Positions 4,376 to 17,802 of a stretch of DNA of 33,777 nt are shown here, piece after piece. Made by a program: the position numbers and the translations under genes. The DNA lies in the NCBI GenBank assembly GCA_028284705.1, contig JANQRE010000025.1:1-33777 (forward strand), written 5' to 3'. How positions within the stretch are numbered: position 1 is the first letter of the stretch; each line of letters begins with the position of its first letter. Below the pieces are notes generated by a model. That model had not been told where the DNA came from. It searched no databases and worked only from the letters and a program-made list of their open reading frames with translations. This stretch comes from Paracoccaceae bacterium. GTDB taxonomy: Bacteria; Pseudomonadota; Alphaproteobacteria; Rhodobacterales; Rhodobacteraceae.

Positions 4376-4403
4376 ACCGGCGCCTACGCAGCGCCGGTTT
4401 TTA
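4376..4403 (+). terminator. Rho-independent terminator of glnBA
   Basis: Perfect 8-bp stem ACCGGCGC (4376-4383) / GCGCCGGT (4391-4398) with a seven-base loop, followed by a T-rich tract (TTTTTATTT). The tract overlaps the stop codon (4401-4403) of the convergent FliM-like gene, so the hairpin separates the two converging transcripts. Confidence 0.9.
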
Positions 4404-5483
4404 TTTGGGCAACTCGACCTCGAGACCAGCAAGAGGACCGCCCTCTTCACCCTGCCCCGAGGGATCAATGGCAGACGCATCATCGTGCGGCAAGTCATCC
4501 AAAGCCAGATCGGACGCCGACAGGCCAGGATCGTGAACCGCCGGATCCGGCAAACTCGACATCTCAAATTGCGATGAACCCCGAGGGGCGAAAGAAGGCT
4601 GCGTGACGGCAGTTGCTTGAAGGAGCGCCAGCCGGATCGCACGCACACCGTTCAACTGCCCCAGATGCGCCTTGCCATGCATCACACCTCGGATGTCAGC
4701 GACGTCAGCCGCGCGCAGCAGAGCCGGATCGATCGGGATCGTGACATCCGGTGCTAACCCCATGAGTTTTCTCACAGATATTTTCACGGAAGGCAGGCTC
4801 ACTGTCAGCGGCACATCCACATCCGCTACTAATTCAAAGAGATGCGGATTGGGTTCGGGCGCGGATTTCTTTGATCGATCCTTCATCACCTTCGCTGGCA
4901 TCCAGATCTGCGCCTGAGCAGTCTTTTGCCCGGGACCAAGATCAAGCTCGACCGAAACTATCTCGTAAGCCTTTTCAGCATAGTCGAGTTCCAGACGCGC
5001 GTGATCGGTCTCCATGCGCAGCGACCGATATCCCGCGAGCGCCAAACCCGGGCGTACGTCCTCGGCAAGTTTGGACATTTGCGCCAGAACGCCGTTGAGA
5101 AACGGCTCGCACATCGAGCGATCAATCTCTGTCACAGGCCGGTCGACCCGTGGCGCTGTGAGCACTTCGCCTAGGGTCTGTTGTTCGATCAACGCATCGA
5201 GAAGAATTGCATCGAACATGATCAGACCCAAGGGCTCGGTCTTATGTTCCAGAATGCAGACCATGCGTTTGTCGGGGAGATCGGCCAGTGCATCCGCCGG
5301 TGGCACCAATCGCACATCAACCTTGGGCACCAAGAGATTGAGATCATGGACGGATTTTGCCGCACGCCGAAACATGTCAGGCGCAATTTCCATGAACACA
5401 TCATGGTATTGCCCCCTCGCCTGAGGTGGCGGGCGCAACATTTTGCGGATCACATCGTCCTTGATGGCGCTTTCGTCGCTCAC
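4401..5483 (-). CDS. FliM/FliN-family (SpoA-domain) motor-switch-like protein, not in a flagellar cluster
   Basis: This 360-residue protein resembles the orphan FliM-like proteins of Rhodobacteraceae. Residues about 25-200 fit a FliM-like middle region (including I-M-F-D-A-I-L-L-D-A-L-I-E-Q-Q-T). Residues about 218-288 form a SpoA domain (V-D-V-P-L-T-V ... V-T-I-P-I-D ... G-Q-L-N-G-V-R-A-I-R-L), the module that builds the flagellar C-ring. The last 70 residues are acidic and probably disordered. The CheY-binding E-I-D-A-L-L motif of true FliM is absent from the N-terminus; a loosely similar D-D-V-I-R-K-M-L is found instead. The start is a GTG at 5483. It lies 80 bases after the histidine kinase and is the last gene of that run; no other flagellar gene is in the window. 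Its function could be in the flagellar switch or as a signalling partner of the adjacent receiver protein. Confidence 0.75.
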   Translation of the reverse strand: MSDESAIKDDVIRKMLRPPPQARGQYHDVFMEIAPDMFRRAAKSVHDLNLLVPKVDVRLVPPADALADLPDKRMVCILEHKTEPLGLIMFDAILLDALIEQQTLGEVLTAPRVDRPVTEIDRSMCEPFLNGVLAQMSKLAEDVRPGLALAGYRSLRMETDHARLELDYAEKAYEIVSVELDLGPGQKTAQAQIWMPAKVMKDRSKKSAPEPNPHLFELVADVDVPLTVSLPSVKISVRKLMGLAPDVTIPIDPALLRAADVADIRGVMHGKAHLGQLNGVRAIRLALLQATAVTQPSFAPRGSSQFEMSSLPDPAVHDPGLSASDLALDDLPHDDASAIDPSGQGEEGGPLAGLEVELPK

Positions 5484-5563
5484 GATTTGGCCTGCTCGAC
5501 AGGGAAACTTCGCCTTGGTTGGGCCTTTATCGCCCCAAAAACCTTACGAATTCGTTGCCAGGA

Positions 5564-15782: not shown

Positions 15783-15807
15783 GCGGGGGCACGTCCCGTG
15801 GCCCCGC
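15783..15807 (+). other. Stem-loop between livF-like gene and acs
   Basis: GCGGGG (15783-15788) pairs with CCCCGC (15802-15807), one G-G mismatch, then CAC/GTG around a five-base loop. It is followed by CTCTTG, not a T run, so it is a weak terminator at best. Like the first intercistronic hairpin it may set the relative level of acs and transporter messages. Confidence 0.55.
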
Positions 15808-15852
15808 CTCTTGCCCCGCTGCTGAGGCACCTCAAAACACTTAGGGACAGAC

Positions 15853-17802
15853 ATGACTGACACGACCTACGCCCCGTCATCTGATTTCGCGGCCAATGCC
15901 CATGTGGACAAAGCCGCCTACGACAAGATGTATGCCGAAAGCATCGCCGATCCGGTCGCCTTCTGGGGCGCGCATGGGAAGCGCATCGACTGGATTAAGC
16001 CCTATACATCGGTGAAGGATGTCACTTACGAATACGGCAATGTCGATATCAACTGGTATGCCGATGGCACCCTGAACGTCGCCGCCAATTGCATCGACCG
16101 GCATCTGGACGCGCGTGGCGATCAGACCGCGATCATCTGGGAGCCCGATGACCCCAATGATGAGGCGCGGCACATCACCTATCGGGAACTGCATTCCGAA
16201 GTGGGTAAATTCTCCAATGTTCTCAAGAAGATGGGCGTTGGCAAGGGCGACCGCGTGGTGCTGTACCTGCCGATGATCCCGCAAGCGGCTTACGCGATGC
16301 TCGCCTGTGCGCGGATCGGGGCGATCCATTCCATCGTGTTTGCTGGCTTCTCGCCGGACGCTCTGGCGAACCGGATCGACGATTCCGAGGCCAAGGTGGT
16401 GATCACCGCGGACGGTGCGCCGCGCGGTGGGCGGGTGACGAACCTGAAGGACAACGTCAATCAGGCCATCGTGCACTCCGCGGAGACGCCACAGGTTCTG
16501 GTCGTGCGTCGCACCGGGCAGCAAGTCGCCTGGGTCGCAGACCGCGATCACTGGTTGCATGAGATGGAAGCGGATGTCTCCGAAGACTGCCCGCCGGAAG
16601 AGATGGGCGCGGAAGACCCGCTCTTCATCCTCTACACCTCCGGCTCCACCGGCAAACCGAAAGGCGTGGTACATTCCTCGGGCGGTTATCTCGTCTATGC
16701 CGCGATGACCCATCAATACACCTTCGACTACCATGACGGCGACATCTTCTGGTGCACCGCGGATGTGGGCTGGGTCACGGGCCACAGCTATATCGTCTAC
16801 GGGCCATTGGCGAACGGCGCGACGACGCTGATGTTCGAAGGCGTGCCGACCTATCCCGATGCGGGCCGTTTCTGGGCGTGCTGCGAAAAGCACAAGGTGA
16901 ACCAGTTCTACACCGCGCCCACGGCCATTCGTGCACTGATGGGTCAGGGCAATGAATTCGTCGAGAGATACGATCTCAGTGATCTGAAACTGCTCGGCAC
17001 CGTGGGCGAGCCGATCAACCCGGAAGCCTGGAACTGGTACAATGAGGTTGTGGGCAAAGGCAAATGCCCGATTGTCGATACCTGGTGGCAGACCGAGACC
17101 GGCGGTCATCTGATGACCCCCCTACCCGGTGCCACGGCGACAAAACCCGGCTCCTGCACCTTCCCGTTCTTCGGCATTGAGCCCGTGATCCTTGAGCCGC
17201 AATCCGGCGCGGAAATCCATGAAACAGCAGCCGAAGGTGTGCTTTGCATCAAGGACAGCTGGCCCGGTCAGATGCGCACGGTCTATGGCGACCACGAACG
17301 CTTCATGCAGACCTATTTCTCCGACTACAAAGGCTACTATTTCACCGGCGACGGCTGTCGTCGTGACGAAGACGGCTATTACTGGATCACGGGGCGTGTG
17401 GACGATGTGATCAACGTCTCCGGCCACCGGATGGGCACCGCAGAGGTGGAATCGAGCCTCGTCGCACACCCGAAAGTCGCCGAGAGTGCGGTTGTTGGAT
17501 ACCCCCACAACATCAAAGGCCAGGGCATTTACGCCTATGTGACGTTGATGTCGGGCGAGGAGCCGACCGACGAGTTGCGCAAGGAACTCAGCGATTGGGT
17601 GCGCAAGGATATCGGCCCGATTGCGAAGCCGGACCTGATCCAATGGGCGCCCGGCCTGCCGAAAACGCGCTCGGGCAAGATCATGCGGCGCATTTTGCGT
17701 AAAATTGCCGAGGATGATTATGGCGCACTGGGCGATACCTCGACCCTCGCGGAGCCCGCCGTTGTTGACGATCTCATCGAAAACCGCATGAACCGCAGCT
17801 AG
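15853..17802 (+). CDS. acs: Acetyl-CoA synthetase (Acs)
   Basis: The 649-residue enzyme activates acetate to acetyl-CoA through acetyl-AMP in the cytoplasm. Landmarks: [11 protein letters not shown] (ATP loop) near residue 262, [10 protein letters not shown] near 380, the W-W-Q-T-E-T-G-G acetate pocket motif near 412, [12 protein letters not shown] near 500, and R-S-G-K-I-M-R-R with Lys609, the same number as the acetylated regulatory lysine of the Salmonella enzyme. The length equals bacterial Acs, and the tryptophan of the W-W-Q-T motif favours acetate over longer acids. It is the last gene of the transporter block, so transport and activation are probably co-regulated. Lys609 acetylation control is possible from family knowledge. 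Confidence 0.97.

Follow-up and report, generated by a model that had tools for sequence, protein, structure and literature searches.

We describe here a gene locus on a 33,777-nt stretch of DNA (the window; contig JANQRE010000025.1) from a Paracoccaceae bacterium whose genome is 98.7% complete, in which genes for an SLC5/STAC-type sensor histidine kinase, a stand-alone receiver and an ScfR-type regulator face a Liv-type ATP-binding cassette (ABC) importer, and in which the gene directly behind the kinase encodes a SpoA-domain protein. Our main finding is that this SpoA protein is, based on its predicted fold, the FliM of the native (fla1) flagellum, presumably functioning in the C-ring, and we consider it probable that the locus as a whole represents an old monocarboxylate module joined by a relocated native fliM. 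The features involved are the following:

4401..5483, minus strand: predicted fliM of the native fla1-type flagellum; FliM middle domain, SpoA C-terminal domain (PF01052 SpoA/FliMN_C, E 2.8e-6) and a low-confidence tail
5543..5558, minus strand: degenerate CtrA-like site GCAA-N7-GTAAG in the kinase-fliM gap; a poor match, spotted by eye
5564..8257, minus strand: SLC5/STAC-type sensor histidine kinase; HisKA and HATPase_c, with a long N-terminus, hydrophobic by eye
8257..8565, minus strand: small protein of 102 amino acids with two hydrophobic stretches (by eye), overlapping the kinase start; no family above cut-off
8562..8939, minus strand: stand-alone receiver (REC) of 125 amino acids without an output domain; PF00072, E 1.3e-25
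9032..10318, minus strand: XRE/ScfR-type transcription regulator; HTH_3 and ScfRs PF09856, E 3.7e-15
10363..10368, plus strand: operator-like repeat 1, TTTACA, of a TTTAC pair with 32 bp spacing common to relatives
10395..10400, plus strand: operator-like repeat 2, TTTACG, 32 bp from repeat 1
10536..11903, plus strand: periplasmic substrate-binding protein of the Liv-type importer; Peripla_BP_6 PF13458, E 7.5e-71
11995..13026, plus strand: permease, LivH type; BPD_transp_2 PF02653
13030..14235, plus strand: permease, LivM type; BPD_transp_2 PF02653
14248..15006, plus strand: ATPase, LivG type; ABC_tran PF00005 and PF12399
15019..15774, plus strand: ATPase, LivF type; PF00005, with the best NCBIfam match, NF008626, below cut-off
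15853..17802, plus strand: acs, acetyl-CoA synthetase, an optional module member; TIGR02188, 1017 bits (cut-off 725)

A structure of the SpoA protein predicted from an alignment of 44 members (mean predicted local distance difference test score, pLDDT, of 80.6) has the domain order of full-length FliM, with a CheC-like middle domain ahead of a SpoA domain. In the PDB, its seven best-matching chains are all FliM from the C-ring of Salmonella (E 3e-15 to 1e-13); a CheC-like protein comes next, and FliM middle domains after it (template modelling score of about 0.7 on the target). Within the alignment, 43 of the 44 members match PF01052 and 42 match the NCBIfam FliM model weakly, and an SxLxRK-like start at the N-terminus, the site of the CheY-binding peptide in FliM, was seen by eye in kinase-linked as well as several motB-linked proteins (the latter are described below). 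The source genome carries a flagellar cluster with the fla1 gene order on contig C22, as read from the open reading frames, and encodes FliN and FliG, with fliG outside this cluster. No protein of this genome reaches the cut-off of the PF02154 FliM model, and only FliN and the window protein are above that of PF01052. In the portions available of a 2025 inventory of the fla1 flagellum (PMC12363192/PMC11974857), fliG and fliN are named and fliM is not, the main text having fliM once, in a reference title; fliG lies outside the flagellar cluster there too (PMC12363192). We identify the SpoA protein as the native FliM because it has the predicted FliM fold, is near-universal in genomes with fla1 FlhA and adjoins motB in eight genomes. 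The first-pass annotation of this DNA had taken it for an extra signalling part, a view that our data do not support: the protein is not found in deep-branching kinase loci and is missing from many genomes with only another flagellum type.

The association with the flagellum was assessed in a family sample of 150 genomes, drawn evenly at about one per genus and with completeness of at least 95%. The one sampled genome congeneric with the source, G187, gives matches at the same positions as the Litoreibacter roseus genome (L012), which places the source in the genus Litoreibacter. Of these, 102 encode a fla1-type FlhA and 99 of the 102 have a full-length FliM match vs. 22 of the 48 genomes without fla1 FlhA (Fisher p 6e-13); the latter comprise 18 genomes with only another FlhA type (FliM in 7, absent in 11) and 30 with none (FliM in 15). 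The three exceptions with fla1 are G053 and G128, which have weaker matches, and G095, which has none (13 of 27 candidates scored). The weak match of G053 adjoins motB; in G128 (L120, about 3680-4795) a FliM-like frame lies within ~350 bp behind a FliG_C match, and a second weak match is found at C1:569190. By a 600-bp rule, fliM adjoins the kinase in 83 of the 99 fla1 genomes and in 20 of the 22 genomes without fla1 FlhA, and a further kinase-adjacent fliM, in G145, is masked by a contig end. In a second, chosen set of 49 named genomes, all 30 with fla1 FlhA have FliM (31 with the source genome), six of the seven with only another FlhA type are without a full-length FliM match, and among the 12 without FlhA eight keep FliM but show no FliN, three are without FliM and the last holds a fragment where a contig ends. 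We also considered a rapid FliM decay once fla1 is absent and did not see it: the median ratio of FliM to kinase non-synonymous divergence is 2.5 with fla1 (378 pairs) and 2.44 without (36 pairs), most pairs being near synonymous saturation and part of the divergence possibly predating flagellar loss.

The module itself is conserved among relatives, also in loci without fliM. Relatives were taken as the best 80 of 575 confirmed named loci, fetched with the kinase alone, and neighbours were sought by tblastn of the window proteins. ScfR was found in 79 of the 80 loci, the receiver in 77, the small membrane protein in 73 and the SpoA/FliM gene directly behind the kinase in 68 (two of the 12 loci without the latter, L027 and L031, are contigs ending early); the importer is adjacent in 62 of the 73 loci long enough to judge, and acs, the least constant part, lies directly behind livF in 37 of these 62. 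Chance grouping is excluded because these genes recur around the kinase in the 80 relatives. Three Defluviimonas loci (L041, L046, L078) have ScfR, the small membrane protein, the kinase and fliM and are without the receiver gene, and a Paracoccus ferrooxidans plasmid carries, consecutively, ScfR, a response regulator, a hypothetical protein, a 'sodium:solute symporter' and a 'FliM/FliN family flagellar motor switch protein'. Outside the named set, the core faces the importer in eight genomes (G050, G063, G065, G096, G100, G114, G128, G147), in six of which (G050, G063, G100, G114, G128, G147, all outer-branch loci) acs is directly behind the importer. Reduced forms also exist, with ScfR, receiver and kinase without the importer in G179 and kinase and receiver alone in G053 and G134, and a plasmid of Neorhizobium sp. 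SOG26 (L200), outside Rhodobacterales, has the binding protein and livHMGF facing ScfR, receiver and kinase, without acs or a SpoA gene. That is, the module occurs without fliM both within and beyond the order; the block is not one five-gene pathway, and fliM is a later neighbour.

These results bear out much of what the first-pass annotation had proposed. All of its eleven genes are open at the positions it gave and have the expected domains, and its view of one divergent module, with an SLC5-type kinase, an output-less receiver and an ScfR-type regulator facing a Liv-type importer, is supported by the conserved synteny; the neighbourhood survey across relatives that it suggested, with unlinked blocks as the unfavourable outcome, found the core conserved as neighbours. 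The divergent arrangement stands as well, whereas the gap, given as 226 bases, is 217 bp with the starts used here. It was also right in setting the locus apart from CrbSR, as a DNA-binding response regulator is not at the locus and the receiver consists of REC only. By domain matches, the importer is a full Liv/HAAT-type ABC set (substrate-binding protein, two permeases and two ATPases), and the ScfR regulator has both an XRE head and a PF09856 C-terminus. The kinase is the sole SLC5-type kinase found in the source genome, 15 other matches spanning the C-terminal kinase part only. HisKA and HATPase_c are present in all 18 aligned kinases, none of which matches the Pfam SSF symporter model even at E 1, and a profile of the 18 matches the solved chain 10ed_A over positions 3-614 (E 3e-93). 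This chain, of 606 residues and titled merely 'histidine kinase', spans the symporter-STAC part of this kinase family. Around the module, a PII-type regulator and glnA (window 2573-4349) are convergent to fliM, a strong glnA match at that position (94-98% identity) occurring only in the Litoreibacter loci L009-L014 of the 80 named loci. On the other side, 3' of acs (window 17919-20908), a small open frame precedes accB, accC and aat; in several relatives accB/accC and aat flank the module, and in L045, L058, L064 and L085, which are without importer and acs, they lie directly opposite ScfR.

The surroundings of 20 displaced or weak FliM copies point to where fliM may have come from. Eight Rhodobacteraceae genomes have fliM within the flagellar cluster, where it faces motB and adjoins other flg genes (stretches L102, L104, L105, L106, L107, L115, L118 and L121), and seven of the eight motB-linked FliM proteins pass the PF02154 cut-off. 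A kinase was found in seven of these genomes (none was found in the eighth, G121), and in all seven the kinase locus is without fliM. In a kinase tree of 63 rows, built by a quick method with support from the Shimodaira-Hasegawa-like approximate likelihood-ratio test (SH-aLRT), the seven motB-linked rows lie outside an inner 52-row clade (support 100) that holds all 39 kinase-linked rows. On the supported branches, the kinase-linked label has to change at least seven times, so that fliM must have been lost or moved repeatedly; it lies away from an inner-clade kinase in G060, G071, G079, G151 and G194. The simplest reading of the tree appears to be one move behind the kinase, followed by losses and further moves, and we infer that this move occurred near the base of the main Rhodobacteraceae radiation in the direction from motB to the kinase.

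The change of location goes largely, though not perfectly, with a change in FliG. The GGXG loop of FliM meets the EHPQR motif of FliG. The EHPQ motif is found in all eight motB-linked genomes and in G155, a genome whose fliM surroundings could not be told, and in none of the 30 other genomes with this FliG type, in which E-S/A-x-E-V or similar is typical (G100 has EHSA and G128 EHAQ). The FliM GG loop follows suit, being present in G155 and in seven of the eight motB-linked genomes (G134 has GA); all 70 kinase-linked proteins (those of 68 named loci, of G100 and of the window) and the 10 located elsewhere are without it. Judged from the aligned motifs, the FliM GG loop and FliG EHPQ show a matching change where fliM left motB. 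The two proteins also tend to share their fate where FlhA is missing: among the 30 genomes without an FlhA match, FliG is present in 14 of the 15 with FliM and in none of the 15 without, so that the pair is jointly kept or jointly lost in 29 of the 30. The exception, G176, with FliM and no FliG, is 95% complete with 6% contamination, and one of the 14 genomes keeping both, G114, still has motB-flgEKL. In a Roseovarius pair without FlhA (L051/L066), the ratio of non-synonymous to synonymous divergence (dN/dS) of FliM is ~0.35, although part of the divergence may predate the loss. That roughly half of the FlhA-less genomes retain the pair may point to a second function or to a slow loss. This linked fate of FliG and FliM in the absence of FlhA is the result for which we have the poorest explanation.

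A regulatory signal of its own may accompany fliM. The CtrA site has been given as TTAA-N7-TTAA (PMC6180460, in the text available). In the 68 kinase-fliM gaps of the relatives, a loose CtrA-like pattern (TnAA and [GT]TAAC) occurs in 28 vs. a mean of 0.7 in shuffled gaps, and in 28 of 30 spaced pairs T[ACT]AA and [GT]TAAC are 11 bp apart, which is the geometry of the published site. The flagellar cluster of the source genome, used as a positive control, has three loose matches only. Hence, fliM may in many cases have a transcript separate from that of the kinase, putatively driven by CtrA. The divergent region between ScfR and the importer carries a different signal. Among 64 such regions, the window included (gaps of 206-250 bp), two TTTAC sites exactly 32 bp apart are found in 54, and at least two TTTAC in 57 vs. 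2.4 after shuffling. Eight further loci were checked, of which G050, G096, G114, G128 and G147 keep the pair, and G063, G100 and Neorhizobium do not. Read by eye, the pair is upstream of a conserved TTGTTG and GATAAT-like pair, a position that suits an activator site, and ScfR is the putative binder. The motif of PccR, TTTGCAAA, was also tried; it is present within one mismatch in 56 of the 64 regions but exactly in one only, and was dropped for the TTTAC pair.

With respect to the substrate, the first-pass annotation had assumed a short-chain carboxylate, which is retained, and favoured acetate, which has lost ground. In two transcript studies of Ruegeria pomeroyi, as far as their available text goes (PMC9870897, PMC9723723), SPO1017-1021, in the order ATPase, ATPase, permease, permease and binding protein, is named as an ABC transporter for lactic acid, and acetate transport is assigned to SPO2963 or, as putative, to SPO1810; the R. 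pomeroyi locus of our set (L070) has an importer in this order beside the same module, the likeness being one of gene order and not of sequence. By analogy with this transporter, lactate, or a monocarboxylate related to it, seems likelier than acetate, and the annotation of SPO1017-1021, together with the presence of acs beside the importer in just 37 of 62 loci, weakens the acetate reading. An importer carrying acetate within an acetate system like CrbSR would agree with these 37 loci and the six outer-branch loci that have acs directly behind the importer, and with the action of CrbS/R on acs reported in the accessible part of PMC5436829; RpuS/R, according to that of PMC9100948, acts on a pyruvate symporter. 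Given that acs is the variable part and that R. pomeroyi acetate transport has been assigned elsewhere, we regard the acetate importer as doubtful.

Taken together, our explanation is that the locus would join two units of different age, an older carboxylate module and a fliM added later. The SLC5/STAC kinase would sense a small monocarboxylate (lactate or one of its relatives being the likeliest) or its flux, and signal through the lone receiver, presumably by phosphotransfer; the receiver would in some manner act on ScfR, and the latter would control the facing importer, and acs if present, through the two TTTAC sites. The fliM gene, once by motB, would have moved behind the kinase gene and mostly stayed, with FliG remaining its partner and, in many relatives, a CtrA-like site of its own serving it. 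The composition of the module, its synteny and the conserved site pair are direct observations, as are, for fliM, the predicted fold, the co-occurrence with fla1 FlhA, the location by motB in outer branches and the motif change matching that of FliG. Several points weigh against this explanation. The window protein gives no match to PF02154, as do none of the 44 aligned members at E 0.01, and is far below the NCBIfam FliM cut-off (19.3 vs. 219.6 bits). FliM retention in 22 of the 48 genomes without fla1 FlhA means that there is no strict tie to the flagellum. In addition, no fliM is among the motility genes of a Phaeobacter inhibens transposon screen in the available text (PMC12363192), a screen also without fliN mutants and whose sequenced library part hit 44.6% of genes. 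The motif change does not fully track the move, as G128, outside the inner clade and with its FliM not by motB, has an altered FliG and no GG loop. Strict TTAA-N7-TTAA occurs in none of the 68 gaps, the loose pattern is missing in 40 of them and the window copy is degenerate; given the absence of strict sites and the few control matches, it is spacing and conservation that argue for CtrA. Finally, regulation of the importer by the kinase, the receiver and scfR is putative.

Alternatively, the SpoA protein might serve the kinase as an output or scaffold unrelated to the flagellum, and the five minus-strand genes might form one acetate signalling pathway. Such a role would fit the 68 of 80 loci in which the SpoA gene comes directly after that of the kinase, the 20 of 22 genomes keeping this position without fla1 FlhA and the dN/dS of the Roseovarius pair; however, the protein has the FliM fold, adjoins motB in eight genomes, is near-universal with fla1 flagella and changes in concert with FliG, and the module persists without its gene, which makes this alternative very improbable. 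It is also conceivable that the kinase phosphorylates the lone receiver, which then binds FliM and so adjusts the motor to the amount of carboxylate available, as proposed for VemR. The adjacency has been long kept (83 of 99 fla1 genomes) and there is a precedent, in the accessible text of PMC7036368, of a stand-alone response regulator binding FliM in Xanthomonas. Direct coupling of this kind is possible but not favoured because the receiver also occurs in loci without an adjacent fliM, as in deep-branching genomes and in Neorhizobium, and is missing in the three Defluviimonas loci with fliM adjacent; many fliM genes moreover carry their own CtrA-like site, and we consider such coupling unlikely.

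Pure inertia is a more serious contender. Under this hypothesis, it was chance that placed fliM behind the kinase and vertical inheritance that keeps it there, and the FliG and FliM of FlhA-less genomes are relics outside the deleted cluster, a scenario whose chances we would place only slightly short of even. The kinase tree permits a single gain with later losses and moves, fliG is outside the cluster too (in the source genome and, per the available text, in PMC12363192), and the pair has been lost in about half of the FlhA-less genomes. Nonetheless, both proteins are kept or lost together in 29 of 30 such genomes, one FlhA-less pair appears to be under purifying selection (with the above caveat that its divergence may partly predate the loss), and fliM has been able to move, as G060, G071, G079, G151 and G194 illustrate. 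The boldest reading, that the relocated FliM is a shared part through which kinase and receiver set motor behaviour, and that the co-altered FliG-FliM pair has an extra-flagellar job kept after flagellar loss, strikes us as quite unlikely.

If our two-part explanation is correct, the locus records how a gene of the C-ring left the flagellar cluster and settled at a nutrient-sensor locus, with its FliG contact motif altered meanwhile, and would provide the Rhodobacterales fla1 motor with a FliM that the main text of the 2025 inventory does not name. The TTTAC pair and the accompanying gene set offer a precise, testable handle on monocarboxylate sensing in a family important in marine carbon cycling, and the FliG-FliM pair is kept or lost as one in genomes without the export gene flhA. 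The literature within reach, with many subscription papers outside it, holds no description of fliM beside an SLC5 kinase.

It is important to note how this model relates to known systems. CrbS/CrbR and RpuS/RpuR share with it an SLC5-STAC sensor kinase tied to small-carboxylate use; here, however, the receiver is without a DNA-binding part, an ScfR-type regulator is adjacent (79 of 80 loci) and the module faces an ABC importer as its target instead of acs alone or the MctP symporter. RamB and PccR resemble the ScfR-type regulator in having PF09856 and an XRE head, although the window protein is far below the RamB equivalog cut-off (114.7 vs. 700 bits) and the conserved sites here are TTTAC, not the TTTGCAAA of PccR. 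The importer has the same five-gene Liv-type order as R. pomeroyi SPO1017-1021, compared by gene order and not by sequence. VemR of Xanthomonas is, like the receiver here, a stand-alone protein and binds FliM (PMC7036368, accessible part), whereas receiver-FliM binding here is hypothetical and the kinases of the two systems differ. Lastly, a native fliM outside the flagellar cluster is already known, according to the text available in each case, for Rhodobacter (Cereibacter) sphaeroides, where fliM and fliG of Fla2 are both outside (PMC7277832), and for Roseibacterium elongatum, where roselon_03295 is a similar case (PMC4149021); for the C. sphaeroides FliM2, a location at a sensor module is not given in that text, and its likeness to the window gene is by description and not by sequence, while in the Rhodobacteraceae genomes studied here the displaced fliM lies, in most cases, directly behind a nutrient-sensor kinase.

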